A program made the position numbers and the translations under genes. A stretch of DNA of 64,000 nucleotides from Candidatus Latescibacterota bacterium (GTDB lineage Bacteria; JAAXHH01), in NCBI GenBank assembly GCA_022821085.1, contig JAJEEG010000006.1:2563330-2627329 (forward strand), read 5' to 3'. Shown here piece by piece: positions 12,213-63,266 of the stretch; the first letter of the stretch is position 1, and every line of letters starts with the position of its first letter. A model generated the notes under the pieces. It was not told the DNA's origin. It worked only from the letters and a program-made list of their open reading frames with translations, and did not search any database.

Positions 12213-13034
12213 ATGACCGCAACAACGCCTCGCCGGACCGCGAAGATGCACGATGCCAACCGCCGATCCTGGGACAACAACGCCGGTTCCTGGGCCGAAA
12301 TGCGGGACCGGGACGGTCTGTGGCGCCGATGCCCGGAGGAACCCGAACTGGGATTCGCGGGCGGCGCGTACGAGTTGATCGGATCCCTTGCCGGCAGCGT
12401 GGACGGTAAGGACGTCGCCGTCGTCGGAAGCGGGGACAATCATGCCGTCTTCGCCCTCGCGGGCATGAAGGCGAATGTCACTTCCATCGATATTTCCGAG
12501 CGGCAGTTGGAAACCGCATCAGCACGGGCGGATCAGCTGGGTCTGGCGATCGCCTTCGTGCGGGCGGACGCGACGGATCTCGCCGCGGTCGCGGACCGTT
12601 CGTTCGACCTGGTCTGCTCGACCAACGGGTTCTTCGTCTGGATCGCGGATCTCCGCGCGGTTTACGGGGAGGTCTTTCGCATACTGAAACCGGGAGGATA
12701 CTACGTCTTCTACGATGTGCATCCATTCCAGCGTCCCTGGGCGGATCGGAACATGTCCATCGAAGTCGACAAACCTTACTGGCATACAGGACCTTTTCGG
12801 GACGAGAAAGAGGGCACGTTCGAATTCAACTGGACGATGACCGACCTGCTGAATCCGGGTACCGATACCGGCCTGGTCCTCCGGCGCATCCTGGAACGCC
12901 CCGCGGAGGATTCGAATACCTGGGAGGGGGCCTCCTATCGTCCGGGCAAAGACAACCGGCTGTTGGACTGGAAGGTGAATCCCCGTGCGGCCCTGCCGTT
13001 CTGGCTTTCGGCGGCATGGCAACGGCCGGCGTGA
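12213..13034 (+). CDS. Class I SAM-dependent methyltransferase
   Basis: A 273-residue cytoplasmic methyltransferase. Motif I is VAVVGSGDNHAVFALAGM with the acidic TSIDISERQL strand after it. Motif II region FVRADATDL, motif III DLVCSTNGFFVWI and the post-motif strand LKPGGYYVFYDVHPF follow. The start may be ATG 12213 or ATG 12246; the latter gives MHDANRRSWDNNAGSW, matching the N-terminus of its paralogue on the minus strand at 15686-16594 ([10 protein letters not shown]). Motif I has GSGDN where many enzymes have GxGxG, shared by both paralogues (GSGDN). Substrate unknown. It is the first of three methyltransferase genes in 5 kb. Confidence 0.85.
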   Translation: MTATTPRRTAKMHDANRRSWDNNAGSWAEMRDRDGLWRRCPEEPELGFAGGAYELIGSLAGSVDGKDVAVVGSGDNHAVFALAGMKANVTSIDISERQLETASARADQLGLAIAFVRADATDLAAVADRSFDLVCSTNGFFVWIADLRAVYGEVFRILKPGGYYVFYDVHPFQRPWADRNMSIEVDKPYWHTGPFRDEKEGTFEFNWTMTDLLNPGTDTGLVLRRILERPAEDSNTWEGASYRPGKDNRLLDWKVNPRAALPFWLSAAWQRPA

Positions 13035-15685: not shown

Positions 15686-16594
15686 TCACGGCGTGCACGG
15701 TTTCTTCCGGCCCACCAGCAACAGGTTCGCCGGCATTTTCTCCATCTGCGCGGCGCCCTCCCATTCCTGGTTACCGTCACCGTACTCCTCCATGGCCACG
15801 AGTTCGCATCCCCCTTCGAGCAGCGCGCGGGTCAGGTCCGATACCGTCCAGTGGAATTCATAGCTGGGGAGCGGTCCGGTACCCTCGGGCAGTTCCTCCG
15901 ACCGGTCATAGGTAAAGGGACCATGGTCGAAGTAATGGAATTCCTGCTCCAGGTGTCCGGAACCATGTTTCCATAACCGCCGAAACGGATGGTACTCGTT
16001 GACCATGAAGAGGCCGCCTGGTTTGAGTATCCGTATGCCCTCTGCGTAGTATCGCTTCAGGTCGGAAACCCACACGGCGACGTGGCCGCCCGTGTACACG
16101 ATATCGAACCCGGCGTCCAAGAGTCCGTCGGAACCGTCGGGGCTGCCTGGACCGCCCGGACTGCCTGGACCGCCCGGACTGCCTGGATCGTTCGGACCGC
16201 CTGATCCGCTCGGAACGCCTGGATCGCCCGGACCGCCCGGAATTGCCAGACCGCCCAGATCGGTTACATCCGCCTGGAGAAACCGGATCTCGAGACCGAG
16301 CTCGACCGCTCTTTCGGCAGCGATATCCAGTTGTGTCTGTGAGATATCCACGGAAGTGACCCGGGCCCCGGCGCCTGCCAGGGCGAAGGCGACCAGGTTG
16401 TCTCCGCTGCCCAGCACGCAGGCGGACCGACCGGACACGTCGCCCAGGTATTTCAGCTCGACGTCGTCCAGCGCGAGATGAATGTTGTCCGGGATGCTCC
16501 GCCAGTCGACCTTGGCGTCGATCTCCGACTGCCATCCGGCGGAAGCGGCGTCCCAGCCCCTGCGGTTCGCCTCGTGCATGGGATGCCTGCTCAT
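15686..16594 (-). CDS. SAM methyltransferase with collagen-like Gly-Pro insertion
   Basis: A 302-residue class I methyltransferase, paralogous to the gene at 12213-13034. Shared features are [10 protein letters not shown] at the N-terminus, motif [40 protein letters not shown], and [15 protein letters not shown]. Between FLQADVTDL and [11 protein letters not shown] it carries about 40 extra residues of Gly/Pro/Ser triplets ([12 protein letters not shown] type), encoded by an 18-bp tandem array (16143-16250). The paralogue has only about four residues there. ATG 16594 is supported by GAGAGG upstream and by the paralogue. The insert falls in a surface loop between the motif II and III strands, so activity may survive. 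Substrate unknown. Confidence 0.85.
16143..16250 (-). repeat. 18-bp tandem array coding a Gly-Pro insertion
   Basis: Units of CTGCCTGGACCGCCCGGA start at 16143 and 16161 (identical), then diverge at 16179, 16197, 16215 and 16233. Being a multiple of three, the array stays in frame in the methyltransferase. Confidence 0.92.
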
Positions 16595-32689: not shown

Positions 32690-33097
32690 ATGTTGAAAGG
32701 TATCTCGGATACGAACACGGAAGAACAGATATTGCGCTCAATAGATGTTCTCAAAGACGTTGTACTATCTACAAGAAATGACGTTAAGGAGGTTAACCAG
32801 CGGCTTGATCGCGTTGAAGCCGACATCGGGGAGATCCGAAACGAAATCAAGGAGGTCCGAACGGAAGTCAGTCAGCGGTTTGATCGCGTCGACATCGAGA
32901 TCAAAGATATCCGAAACGAATTCAAGGAGTTCCGATCGGACACCAATCAGCGGTTTGATCGCGTTGAAGCCGACATCGGGGAGATCCGAAACGACATCAA
33001 GGCGGTCCGAACGGAAGTCAGTCAGCGGTTTGATCGCGTTGAAGCCGACATCGGGGAGATCAAGGAAACGCTGCGAGAGATTAGCGGCCGCGGTTGA
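32690..33097 (+). CDS. Repeat-built coiled-coil protein, function unknown
   Basis: A 135-residue soluble protein, almost entirely charged helix. After a short head (MLKGISDTNTEEQILRSID), four copies of a 25-residue unit follow, of the type QRFDRVEADIGEIRNDIKAV, matching 75-bp nucleotide repeats at 32798, 32873, 32948 and 33023. A 25-residue period spans seven helical turns at about 3.57 residues per turn, as expected of a nearly straight or mixed heptad/hendecad coil. No membrane segment or signal peptide is present. ATG 32690 follows GGGAGG. Neighbours give no functional hint; a spacer or oligomerisation rod is the only inference. Confidence 0.75.
   Translation: MLKGISDTNTEEQILRSIDVLKDVVLSTRNDVKEVNQRLDRVEADIGEIRNEIKEVRTEVSQRFDRVDIEIKDIRNEFKEFRSDTNQRFDRVEADIGEIRNDIKAVRTEVSQRFDRVEADIGEIKETLREISGRG
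32798..33097 (+). repeat. 75-bp x4 coding tandem repeat
   Basis: Units start at 32798, 32873, 32948 and 33023 with CAGCGG(C/T)TTGATCGCG. Units 1, 3 and 4 share GTTGAAGCCGACATCGGGGA, while unit 2 is diverged (GTCGACATCGAGATCAAAG). Near identity at the DNA level implies recent expansion or homogenisation. Confidence 0.93.
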
Positions 33098-58649: not shown

Positions 58650-59984
58650 TCAGAAATGGTAGTTGATACCCAGTTGAACGAAACCGTCCTGCCGGAGATC
58701 GTAGTACAGATCGTCGCGTTCGATGTTGGTGATCGCGACCGCTCCCAGGTCCAGGGAAAAGGCATCTGACAGCCGGCGCGCCAGTTCAAGACCGTAGATG
58801 CTCTGACGCTTGTCGAGATCGTGCAGCACACTCACCGTCATCTCCGTACCCTGGACATCGTTCAGCATGAGCCGCAGGGCGGCGAAGAGGTCGTTCTCAT
58901 AGAAATTGGTCGCGCGGCGGCCGCGTTCATCACGGTCCCATTCGGCGAAAAGGGTAAGGTCGGCGTCCGTATTCCACAAGGAAAAAAACGTGTACTCGCC
59001 GCCCAGTACGAAGGCGTTGAAGGTCTCTTCCACGCCCGCCAGGTTGCGCGCGCCGGACCGCCTGATCGCTTCCAGCTTCAGCAGCAGGGACCCGGTGGTC
59101 CACTGGGCGTCCAGGCCGTACTGGCGGATCTGATGGTATATGGGATAAAGCACGGGTACGGGCGGACCGGGCGAGCCGGGCGGACCGGTAGAGTTGGACG
59201 GCACACCCTGCGGTCCGCAGTCAAAACACAGGCCGAAGGCGGGCTCCCTGGCCGTGCCGTCGAATACGCTGGCGCCGAAATCCAGCAGGCCCAGGGTATG
59301 GCTGTAGCGGGCGGCGAAATCCGGATGCCACTTCCCGGACGAACTTTCGTATTCCGCCAGGTCATTGTCGACGACCACCGATGCACGCAGCCGTCCGTCG
59401 CTGCCGGGGAACGTGCGTTTCCGGTGCCAGGACATGCCCAGCAGTTCCACCACGCCCCAGTCCGAAGACCAGGTCACGTAGGCCATGGGCTGCCCCATCC
59501 GGGTCTTTTCGTCGGGATGTTCGACCAGGTCGATCTGGTTGACGATGTCCACCAGGTGACGGGACTCGACCACGCCCCAGAAAACGCGGTCTACCCCCAG
59601 GCGCAGCTCCCATTCCCCGTTGCCGGCGGCGCCGGAAAGCAGGAGGTACGCTTCTCGCAGGTCGTAATGGGTTCGGCGGTCGTCCGCGCTGTCGTAGCGG
59701 AACCAGGGCGTCACGTTGAGGATGCGGCCCGCTTCGTCTTCGAGGTAGAGGTTGGGTTCCGCTACGAATCCGCTCGCGTGCGAACCCTGGCCCTGGAAAA
59801 GGGCGGTCTGGGGAAACCACCGGTTTTCCGCGGCCAACCGGCCCGTCAGGTCGACCTCGTAGATACCGGCCTGACCGTGCGAAGCAGCCGGATGCGTCGC
59901 GACACCGAACAGGCAGACGCCGAACCACAGGAGGCGAACCAGGGCCCGCGATAGGGCCCGCGATAGGGCCCGCGAGGGCATCAC
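58650..59984 (-). CDS. Outer-membrane beta-barrel protein of the MMPL exporter operon
   Basis: A 444-residue exported beta-barrel resembling DUF1302-type outer-membrane proteins: a signal peptide, then strands such as ENRWFPQTALFQGQG and LREAYLLLSG...WELRLGVDRVFWG, ending in VQLGINYHF with the C-terminal Phe of outer-membrane proteins. The n-region of the signal peptide contains (SRAL)3 from a 12-bp tandem repeat, and a Gly-Pro loop (TGPPGSPGPP) falls near residue 270. The start overlaps the LolA-like gene stop (ATGA). Order exporter, LolA-like, barrel suggests a lipid-moving envelope pathway. Confidence 0.8.
   Translation of the reverse strand: MMPSRALSRALSRALVRLLWFGVCLFGVATHPAASHGQAGIYEVDLTGRLAAENRWFPQTALFQGQGSHASGFVAEPNLYLEDEAGRILNVTPWFRYDSADDRRTHYDLREAYLLLSGAAGNGEWELRLGVDRVFWGVVESRHLVDIVNQIDLVEHPDEKTRMGQPMAYVTWSSDWGVVELLGMSWHRKRTFPGSDGRLRASVVVDNDLAEYESSSGKWHPDFAARYSHTLGLLDFGASVFDGTAREPAFGLCFDCGPQGVPSNSTGPPGSPGPPVPVLYPIYHQIRQYGLDAQWTTGSLLLKLEAIRRSGARNLAGVEETFNAFVLGGEYTFFSLWNTDADLTLFAEWDRDERGRRATNFYENDLFAALRLMLNDVQGTEMTVSVLHDLDKRQSIYGLELARRLSDAFSLDLGAVAITNIERDDLYYDLRQDGFVQLGINYHF
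59941..59976 (-). repeat. 12-bp x3 tandem repeat in a signal-peptide n-region
   Basis: AGGGCCCGCGAT at 59941 and 59953, and AGGGCCCGCGAG at 59965, encoding (SRAL)3 on the minus strand directly after the start of the outer-membrane protein. Confidence 0.95.
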
Positions 59985-60985
59985 CGCACCCGCCTCAGCC
60001 CGGTACGGGTGAAGTCGCGGTCGTCGATGTCGGTCCCGAACCGGTAGTCCGTCCAGACCAGGTCGGTGCTCTTGCCCGTCAGATGGTTCACCATGGCCAT
60101 ACTGCCGGCCCGCCAGAAACGGTCGAGGTACTGCCGGTACTCACCGATGGTAAGCGTCTTGAGATGGGCGTCCTTGCGGTCGTAGTACTCCACTTTCCAA
60201 ACGCGGAGCGCCGACTTGTCGCGCCAGACGAGCTGGCGGCGGTAGACCGAACCCTTCTCCACCGGAATGCGCTCGGTGACCACGCAGTCCAGGCCGTCTC
60301 CGCAGGGTTCGTCGCGCAGGTACCTGTAGGTGTATTTCTCCACTTCCTGGACCGTCATGTCCTCGTAGGTGAACTCGCTTCCCATGAAGGAACCCGAACG
60401 GTTGGACGAACTGATGCGCTTTACGCGCTTCAGGGCCGGCAGGTATAGCCATTGGTCGTCCGCCCGGTCTTTGTGGCCGTGTATGAGCAGCGCGGTGCCC
60501 CGGGCGTCGCGCGGCTCGTCGAACACGAAGAGACTCTTGTTGCCGTCGTCCTCCGCCTCGAGCACCTTCACGCGCACTTCGCGGACGCTCTCCTGCCCTT
60601 TCTTGTTGCGCAGGACCATGGTCATGCCGGCCGTGAAATTGCCGAAACCCTCGTCCTGCTTCCGGGCGTCACGGGCGATCTGCAGCCCTTTTTCTTCCGA
60701 TGGAACGGCTGGCCCGCCTGGACCGCCTGGCCCGCCTGGACCGCCTGGCCCGCCCGGCCCGCCTGGACCGCCTGCCCGTGCCTCCTGGGACGGCATGCCC
60801 GGCAGGACGAACATCGCCAGGAGGCAGAACCCGGCGGCACGCAATCCCAGCGCCGGTCTCACACGCGCCGGTCTCACACGCGCCGGTCGCATACCCGCCG
60901 GTCGCATACCCGCCGGTCGCACACGCGCCGGTCGCATACCCGCCGGTCGCACGCGCGCCGGTCGCATTGGTCTATCTGTTTTCAT
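59981..60985 (-). CDS. LolA-like outer-membrane lipoprotein-sorting protein
   Basis: A 334-residue periplasmic protein of the LolA-like group associated with RND exporters. The mature domain has MTMVLRNKKGQESVREVRVKV, SLFVFDEPRDARGTALLIHG, DDQWLYLPALKRVKRIS and SFMGSEFTYEDMT, all family hallmarks. The N-terminus is unusual: an Arg-rich n-region of about 45 residues built from 15-bp repeats (RPARV/RPAGM units), then a normal core (GFCLLAMFVLP), then a GGP-triplet stretch from 9-bp repeats. AGGAG is seven bases before ATG 60985. The start overlaps the exporter stop and the end overlaps the barrel start, both as ATGA. Confidence 0.87.
   Translation of the reverse strand: MKTDRPMRPARVRPAGMRPARVRPAGMRPAGMRPARVRPARVRPALGLRAAGFCLLAMFVLPGMPSQEARAGGPGGPGGPGGPGGPGGPGGPAVPSEEKGLQIARDARKQDEGFGNFTAGMTMVLRNKKGQESVREVRVKVLEAEDDGNKSLFVFDEPRDARGTALLIHGHKDRADDQWLYLPALKRVKRISSSNRSGSFMGSEFTYEDMTVQEVEKYTYRYLRDEPCGDGLDCVVTERIPVEKGSVYRRQLVWRDKSALRVWKVEYYDRKDAHLKTLTIGEYRQYLDRFWRAGSMAMVNHLTGKSTDLVWTDYRFGTDIDDRDFTRTGLRRVR
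60711..60773 (-). repeat. 9-bp x7 array coding Gly-Gly-Pro triplets
   Basis: Alternating GGCCCGCCT and GGACCGCCT units from 60711 to 60773 (an 18-bp higher period). The shared 12-mer GCCTGGACCGCC also occurs in the methyltransferase array at 16143. Confidence 0.95.
60852..60971 (-). repeat. 15-bp x8 array in a signal-peptide n-region
   Basis: Eight units from 60852 every 15 bases, of two alternating types (GCCGGTCGCATACCC and GCCGGT(C/T)(C/G)... ACACGC), in frame, coding RPAGM or RPARV pentapeptides. Confidence 0.95.
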
Positions 60986-63266
60986 GATTTTCTCCTGTCT
61001 AGCGCCATAAGCAGGGGAGGAAGCAGCAGGAAATCGGCTATGATCGCAAAGGCGATAGTGATAGTGACCAGCAGCCCGAGCGCCCAGGACACCTGGAAAC
61101 CGGAACCCGCGAAGGCCAGGAACCCCGCGGAAAGGACCAGCGTCGTGGTCCACAACGCCTTACCCACCGACCGGAAGGTAACGCGCACTGCTTCTTCCGC
61201 CGAAAGGCCTCCTCTTTGCGCGCCCGGAGGTACCTGCTGAGAAAGTGGATCGTATCGTCCACGACGATGCCGAAGGCGACGACGATGACCACCGACGAGG
61301 CGATGCCCACTTCGCCGACCAGGTGCCCCCAGAGCCCGAAGCTCATGGCCGCGGGTACGAAATTCGGCAACAGGCTGATGAGGCCGAAGCGAAAACTCTT
61401 GAAGACCAGGACGAGGATGACCGAGATGAGCAACATGGCGGTCACCGTCCCGCGCAGCATCGACTCGATGTTGCGTTGCGAGATGTGGGCGAAGACCACG
61501 CTCAGCCCGGTGGCTTCGGTCGCGAGCGCGGGTGCGTTCTCACGCAGCCAGGATTCGCCCCGGCCGGCGAGGTCCTGCAGGTCCTGGCTTGATCGGCCGC
61601 GGATCACGACCGTCATGCGCGTCGCGGACTTGGAAACATCGATCCGGTCGTTCAGATCGCTGCCGAAGGGCAGTGACAGTTCGTAGAGCAGCAGGTACTG
61701 CGATGCGAGATCCTGGGCATCGGGTATCCGGAAGTAGTCCGGATCGTCGCCGTTCATGTTCTTGTTCAGCCGCTTCATGATGTCCGGGAAGGCCTGCACG
61801 TGGCCCACTTCAGGCTGGCTCCGGTTCCATTCCGCGAAAGCCTCCACCTGCCGAAGGTAATCCGGATCGGTGATCCCGCCCTCTTCTTCCGCGGCCAGCG
61901 TGTATTCCAGGGACAGCAGTCCGGTCAGGTTGTCCATGACGAAATCCGTATCCCGCCGGAACTCGTAGCGTTCATCGAAGTAATCCGGCCAGCTGTCGGT
62001 CAGCACGTTCCTGGGCACACCGGTAATCAGGACGATGGTCATTAGCCCGATTAACCAGAGCAGCGGCTTGCGACGCGCGACGACGAAATCACCCAGGCGA
62101 TCGAAGAAGACCGGTTGCCGGAGACCACCGGCCCGGGCCCGCAGAGGAAGGACCGAAAGCAGCGCAGGCAGCAGCGTTACGGCATAGACGAACGTGATCA
62201 TCACCCCGAAAGCCACGAAATTGCCAAGAATGTGAAAGGGCGGCGAGTCCGAGAAGTTCAGACTGAGAAAACCGATCGCGGTGGTGATCGAGGCCAGGAA
62301 TACCGGGTAGGCGTTCGTCTTTATGGATACCTTGACCGCTGTGTTCCGGTCCTCCCCCCGTCTTATCCCCGAGAGCGCGTGGGTGATGATGTGGACCGCC
62401 TGGGCAACGGAAATCGCCATGACGATAATGGGCACCCCGGAATTCACCGGGCTGAATACCGTGTGGAACCAGCCGGCAAGCCCCATGGTCGTCGTAATCA
62501 CGAAACCGATCATGACGACGATGATGCCCGTTCCCAGCAAGGACCGCATGAGAAGGGTCGACGTAATCACGATGAGGACGAAGACGATGGGCAGCAGGGT
62601 TTCCAGGTCGTCCCGGGTGGCATCGGCGAAGGCCCGGTTCATGACCACGTCCCCCGTCAGGTAGAAGTCCACTTCCCCGTTCGCCGCCCTCGCATCGTCC
62701 AGCATGCCGTCCAGGTAGTCTGTCAGCTCGATCACCGCGAGATCCGGGTTATCGCCCAGCACGAAGTTGACCGCCAGGCCGGCCACACGGCCGTCAGGAG
62801 AAACGAGCCGCCCGACCACCTCCCGGGAACCCAGCGCGATCGTCCGGACGCGGTCCAGGTCGGCCTCGCTCAGCGACGTGGCGTCCTCGACGAGCGGCCC
62901 CACGATGAGGTCGTCTTCCATCGCTTCGCTGTGAAAGTAGTTCGTAAGGGAATTCACCCGCGTCGAGTACGGAGCGAGCCAGGCGTTTTCGGTGAGGTCT
63001 TCGACGAGGCCAAGCACTTCTCGGGTGAAGACGGAACTGTCCCGGGGTGCGATGGCGATCAGGGCGGTGTTCGAGACGGCGTAGGTGTCTTCCAGCGCAT
63101 CGAAGGCGGCGAGTTGGGGGTTGTTCTCGCCGAACATGACGCGATGCTCGTTGGAGACGATGATATTCCTGGCGCCGGCCGCCATGGAGAGCATGAACAG
63201 CAACGTTAGCGAAATAACAAGCCAGCGATGGCGCAGGATTGCGTCGATGTAGTTATCCAGGTGCAA
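60982..63266 (-). CDS. MMPL/RND-superfamily exporter, interrupted by a -1 frameshift
   Basis: A predicted 760-residue RND exporter of the COG1033/MMPL group with two six-helix halves and two large periplasmic loops. The sterol-sensing-like segments include VPIIVMAISVAQAVHIITHAL and the matching VVIVVAFGIVVDDTIHFLSRYL. The first frame diverges at about 61215 (RYLRARKEE) and then stops at 61038. The last conserved helices (EEAVRVTFRSVGKALWTT to LLMALDRRKS) are in the -1 frame and end at TGA 60982-60984, overlapping the next gene as ATGA. The expected overlap shows the true end. One missing base near AAAGAGGAGG is implied. The start is TTG 63266. Confidence 0.88.

Follow-up and report, generated by a model that had tools for sequence, protein, structure and literature searches.

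How has a bacterial methyltransferase acquired a stretch of protein that looks like collagen? This question is raised by a gene on the minus strand of the window, the whole stretch of 64,000 nucleotides of Candidatus Latescibacterota DNA analysed here. The gene (15686-16594, with its ATG at 16594 and its stop codon at 15686) has an uninterrupted reading frame for a class I SAM-dependent methyltransferase of 302 amino acids. Its product matches Pfam Methyltransf_11, and a Foldseek search with its AlphaFold2 monomer model, built from a nine-sequence alignment, retrieves SAM methyltransferases. By Pfam, model and Foldseek, the protein is predicted to adopt the Rossmann-like fold of the class I enzymes, with SAM binding and methyl transfer as its putative functions. 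The Pfam match stops at residue 113, and residues 114-162 form an insert rich in Gly, Pro, Ser and Asp (minus strand, 16109-16255, 147 bp). In the model, this insert lies between β3 (residues 103-107) and β4 (residues 163-168) and is disordered, with block means of pLDDT of 35-47 over residues 121-160, as opposed to mostly more than 80 in the core. Most of its coding sequence is a 9/18-bp tandem array encoding GSPGGP units (minus strand, 16145-16241), for which TRF reports a period of 18 (5.4 copies, 81% match) as well as a period of 9 (10.8 copies).

The array was first described in an interpretation made without database searches (the sequence-only reading), which noted about 40 extra Gly/Pro/Ser residues relative to a paralogue on the plus strand (12213-13034) and an 18-bp tandem array whose first two units are identical. 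Both observations hold: the spacing between VTDL and FDIVYT is 49 residues in the methyltransferase and 7 in the paralogue, a difference of 42, and an identical pair of 18-bp units lies at the plus-strand start of the array. The expansion is also, as proposed, internal, tandem and in frame. The insert is somewhat wider than the 16143-16250 originally given, and its assignment to the interval between the motif II and motif III strands, in the customary naming, is replaced by the β3-β4 position seen in the model. The paralogue is likewise a Methyltransf_11 protein, whose Pfam match runs through the site equivalent to the insert and whose model shows a short, high-confidence link between β3 (113-117) and β4 (131-136). 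Structure prediction of both proteins supports the suggestion that the insert would loop out of the fold. The two paralogues are about 42% identical and lie only a few kb apart in most members of the genus in which both were found, which indicates that the pair is old in the genus.

The age of the insert can be judged from its distribution. Our sample of the genus comprised twelve genomes, and a scan of named genomes returned 11 loci, of which the close ones are labelled Candidatus Latescibacterota, Gemmatimonadetes or Gemmatimonadota. Eleven distinct close orthologues, ten of them from genomes of the genus and one (L036) a homologue with 82% identity that was counted irrespective of its genus, contain 49, 43, 31, 31, 31, 31, 25, 25, 22, 19 and, in the case of L036, 10 residues at the insert site; a further locus (L052) that begins at a contig edge gave no match and lies outside this count. 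All 11 have a G/D-X-P stretch at exactly this position, with a proline at about every third residue. G005 and the two sister genera yielded no close orthologue. Since every close orthologue read has an insert with a length of its own, the insert occurs throughout the genus and is no novelty of this strain. It is a variable-number tandem repeat (VNTR) and not the one-off event "caught between two paralogues" that had originally been proposed, and in the paralogue the site has a constant length, with 7 residues in all 12 of 12 genomes. The opposite possibility, an ancient structural element shared with distant taxa, had been named as the case that would refute this proposal; it is ruled out by the distant homologues L038 and L039, which have 7 residues at the site and lack the insert.

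The array in the methyltransferase gene belongs to a large family. One 9-mer, with the consensus RGGCGGWCC, builds dozens of tandem arrays in this genome, and arrays of at least three GGNNNNCCN units occur 10 times in a systematic 400 kb sample, compared to 0 times in its shuffled version, so that they are no product of chance. The four-unit GGNNNNCCN pattern has 129 (overlapping) occurrences in the genome itself and 5 to 77 in the 11 other genomes of the genus. Of four genomes from other genera of the phylum, those of the two sister genera have none and two more from the order have 0 and 2; among 43 genomes of other phyla, the maximum is 6. The units are arranged head to tail and fall within the range of about 6-100 bp that characterizes bacterial coding minisatellites. 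Two additional members of the family are located on the minus strand of the window, one (60701-60774) encoding seven GGP units just after the signal-peptide-like start of an ORF (59981-61153), the other (59159-59188) consisting of only three units that encode GPPGSPGPP; both vary in length between congeners. Upstream of the signal-peptide-like start of the GGP-containing ORF, there is a 15-bp array (60851-60966; RPARV/RPAGM-like) whose length also varies in congeners, and a 75-bp repeat elsewhere in the window (32798-33061, 3.5 copies), which by inspection appears coiled-coil-like in translation, is longer in G001 and G006. A generally repeat-rich genome accounts for these findings only in part: the density of TRF loci (23 per 100 kb) exceeds that of the two sister genera about 3- to 7-fold, yet it is similar to the 17.7 per 100 kb of unrelated GC-rich stretches, one of which (G031) reaches 40 per 100 kb. 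A 74 kb stretch of G001 contains no period-9 locus.

The reading frame of the 9-mer determines what the arrays encode. Among 49 classified arrays of at least three units from this genome, a set weighted towards sites among the matches listed, 20 are of the G-X-P type, 16 of the QAD type (QAD, QAG, PVR and LVG), three of the GRS type (GRS and GRT, from the third frame) and 10 noncoding, with frames predicted by a home-made six-frame coding model. The coding calls include a few arrays close to a start codon (133570, 230761) that may be 5' leader sequence, and the counts retain one array (1727590) from outside the 9-mer family. The protein containing the latter (L147 near 2090; G000:C1:1727590) has a genuine Gly-X-Y collagen-type stretch, unrelated to the 9-mer, at its N terminus and by inspection resembles a lipoprotein with a trypsin-like part. 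The term "collagen-like" hence describes the methyltransferase insert correctly as far as its letters in this frame are concerned, whereas in other genes this 9-mer yields QAD/QAG, PVR or GRS, and it also lies outside genes; the collagen look is due to the reading frame. Because a 9-bp unit is divisible by three and the frames that occur contain no stop codon in most unit variants, genes can be lengthened by arrays whichever frame is read.

It could nevertheless be argued that selection maintains the G-X-P stretch because it resembles collagen or polyproline and forms, for instance, a trimerising triple helix or a contact with host collagen. The bacteria concerned presumably live in sponges, an assumption that we base on the naming of isolates, and the one studied here is probably sponge-dwelling as well. 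Consistent with such hosts, sponge Latescibacterota are described in the literature (PMC12993501). Proline is maintained at about every third residue in every close orthologue despite drift in residues and codons, and G-X-P is the commonest frame, used by 20 of the 39 coding arrays. However, the other 19 coding arrays are of the QAD and GRS types, the site is only 10 residues long in one orthologue, and the insert is irregular, with at most five uninterrupted G-X-P triplets and breaks such as SGS and NDP, instead of a long unbroken Gly-X-Y repeat as in collagen-like proteins. It is, moreover, disordered in the (monomer) model, and no export signal is evident by inspection at the N terminus of the enzyme. 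We therefore regard a selected collagen element as very unlikely.

Copy number changes at fixed sites are a general property of the arrays. We read three further sites in 14 genomes of the family, with a flavin monooxygenase that we take to be KMO-like found in 12, a DUF58 protein in 14 and UppP in 13 of them. The QAG stretch of the KMO-like protein comprises 35 residues in this genome and 38 in G008; the remaining members of the genus have 9 to 14, and the sister genus G013 has 8. For DUF58 (GRS), the lengths in the genus, omitting the more distant copy matched in G009, are 57, 52, 42, 42, 39, 39, 33, 21, 15, 15 and 12 residues, compared with 9 in two sister genera, and the GGP stretch of UppP varies between 13 and 25 residues in the genus, compared with 10 in two sister genera. 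All of these changes, measured between fixed motifs, are in frame, and the sister genera G012 and G013 lack the arrays. Within the window, 19 of 20 arrays differ by at least 6 bp in at least one of five congeners, as opposed to 9 of 60 random non-array sites, and length differences affect 75 of 92 site-genome pairs for arrays versus 24 of 280 for controls. As in a VNTR, copy number thus differs at the same site between related genomes, in this case between species, with congeners being about 86-89% identical across the aligned region of the window. Separately, we observed that MutS itself is expanded ahead of the C-terminal end by a stretch rich in Gly and Asp; of four genus members read, three show this expansion (L211, at G000:C3:94801-97800, L212 and L213), while G007 (L214) has a short version and the sister genus G012 (L215) none. 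Tandem repeats misassemble easily, and the named matches are metagenome-assembled genomes, so that the arrays might in principle reflect faulty assembly or binning. Given that they occupy the same sites in assemblies of several isolates with separate names and in as many as 11 genomes of the genus, keep the frame in all genes read and would mostly fit inside one short read, such an artefact is extremely unlikely.

Ten array-containing proteins, chosen by us from the 39 coding calls, were scanned against Pfam, and all ten gave matches: sulfatase, homoserine dehydrogenase, FAD-binding monooxygenase, HAD hydrolase, UppP/BacA, 2-oxoacid dehydrogenase E2, DUF58, DUF815, aminotransferase and JAB. 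In 32 of the 39 coding arrays, and in 18 of the 20 G-X-P arrays, the coding strand is the purine-rich strand. The preference for the G-X-P frame and for this orientation leaves room for selection at the protein level, and variable loops could be adaptive, with slippage supplying length variants among which selection tunes flexibility, solubility or partner contacts, similar to a contingency locus without on/off switching. In line with this idea, the same array sites persist across species in spite of their divergence. Purifying selection against harmful frames would, however, be expected to produce an equal bias in orientation, the host genes encode housekeeping enzymes of various kinds that share no theme, and the density of repeat loci, irrespective of type, is several-fold higher outside genes, where about 18% of the bases contain 27 of 54 loci. 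An adaptive role of the variable loops therefore appears unlikely.

A further aspect of the arrays is their uniformity. The 54 high-scoring repeat loci of the systematic 400 kb sample are divided equally between called genes and the sequence outside them. Among the 27 coding loci, the smallest period is 9 in 12 cases and 18 in six (together 18 of 27), with 0, 1 and 0 loci at periods of 6, 12 and 24, respectively; outside genes, periods of 9 and 18 are found in four loci each, and 400 kb of two sister genera contain no locus with either period. When the consensus units of 17 period-9 loci were compared, 9 of 136 pairs were within one mismatch of each other, as opposed to means of 2.0 for shuffled units and 2.3 for GC-matched genomic 9-mers (0 of 300 replicates each). 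Among the tests of the consensus, only this unit-similarity test gave a clear result. A preference for GG-N4-CC is weak when runs of period 9 are considered (6 of 16, against a null mean of 3.0 and a maximum of 7) and not significant across all TRF arrays with a period that is a multiple of 9 (9 of 38; null mean 6.1, maximum 11). Simple slippage from random seeds should yield many 9-mers and many periods, whereas the units observed converge on one consensus and periods of 9 and 18 dominate.

Several candidate causes of this bias were considered. Seed abundance is ruled out as an explanation, because single-copy octamers are not over-represented outside arrays (z -1.7 to 1.1), and a role of hairpin-prone units is not supported, as permuted units fold as well or better for four of five motif units. 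Loss of mismatch repair is ruled out by the presence of MutS and MutL genes in the family: MutS exceeds the cut-off in 12 of 14 genomes and is matched in pieces in the other two, while MutL exceeds it in 13 of 14, the exception being a sister genus. The dominance of period 9 and RGGCGGWCC is thus explained by none of these three factors. Likewise, a mobile element with shared flanks is ruled out by a comparison of the flanks of 49 arrays, which revealed no shared flanking element; apart from the two neighbouring methyltransferase blocks, the matches span 17-59 bp, and many of them are repeat-like. The convergence of units across unrelated loci and frames, the lack of excess single-copy seeds and the strong preference for period 9 could point to a spread of the 9-mer between loci, either by gene conversion or through the addition or copying of RGGCGGWCC units by an enzyme specific to this sequence. 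Against such a spread, flanks are not shared, and the spelling of the units is locus-specific across species, with UppP mostly using GGCGGACC and DUF58 mostly GGCGGTCC. Units from the same locus in different species are separated by a mean distance of 2.27 (173 pairs), less than the 2.67 (49 pairs) that separates units of different loci within one genome, a difference reached in 0 of 1000 permutations, which speaks for local origin and growth. Spread between loci thus has only a small chance of being the correct explanation.

Based on the sharing of sites, the use of frames and the changes in length, we infer, with a probability of about 0.78, that the insert is a coding 9-bp minisatellite (VNTR) of an RGGCGGWCC family abundant in one Latescibacterota genus, generated by local slippage and filtered by selection. 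An array would start from a local seed of one or two units and then grow or shrink in 9-bp steps by replication slippage or misaligned recombination, thereby preserving the reading frame, with most unit variants offering no stop codon. Selection would purge arrays at rigid or catalytic positions and retain arrays that sit in surface loops, linkers or termini and whose products there would be soluble, disordered peptides. The methyltransferase insert would be a typical example, with a β3-β4 loop that may tolerate 10 to 49 such residues. Most likely, the inserted peptide is tolerated and serves no purpose otherwise. As a more tentative and rather improbable extension, the genus may possess a sequence-specific process, distinct from plain slippage, that makes or favours RGGCGGWCC arrays and writes disordered peptides into housekeeping enzymes, with the frame setting whether they read as GGP, and hence look like collagen, or as QAD or GRS. 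If the preference for the 9-mer is real, it would indicate that an uncultured phylum has an undescribed process of repeat expansion. More generally, a collagen-like or low-complexity segment may arise through repeat growth at the DNA level alone, and annotators should not take Gly-X-Pro stretches in this genus as a sign of collagen function. The same enzymes with few to many units also provide a natural series in which the cost of disordered loops could be determined.

A search of open-access PMC papers found no report of 9-bp repeats of this kind, although the arrays share features with several known systems. Bacterial collagen-like Gly-X-Y proteins are long, regular and usually exported. The insert resembles them (e.g., the Burkholderia set) in its triplet periodicity with Gly and Pro but consists of a short, interrupted run within the loop of an enzyme, with triplets that depend on the frame. 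Rickettsia palindromic elements are DNA repeats dispersed in protein genes, where their in-frame translation adds a peptide. The 9-mer arrays are likewise spread through protein genes as in-frame additions, yet they reflect pure tandem growth, without a palindromic element or shared insertion unit, and the flanks of the 49 arrays contain no shared inverted-repeat element. The GGGNATC heptamer repeats of Xanthomonas and Nostoc (Rehm et al., 2015; PMC4692102) have a 7-bp unit and are mostly intergenic. Both families combine a short, G-rich unit with genome-wide arrays of variable copy number; the unit described here, however, measures 9 bp instead of 7 bp, its G-tracts are mostly two nucleotides long (GG in the consensus, and GGG only if R is G), and 39 of the 49 classified arrays lie in called genes, in three frames. 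Bacterial coding minisatellites and VNTRs, such as the intragenic repeats of Legionella, also consist of in-frame tandem units whose number varies between related genomes. What sets the present family apart from these other coding VNTRs is the recurrence of one 9-mer consensus, in all frames, at dozens of unrelated and mostly housekeeping loci of a single genus.
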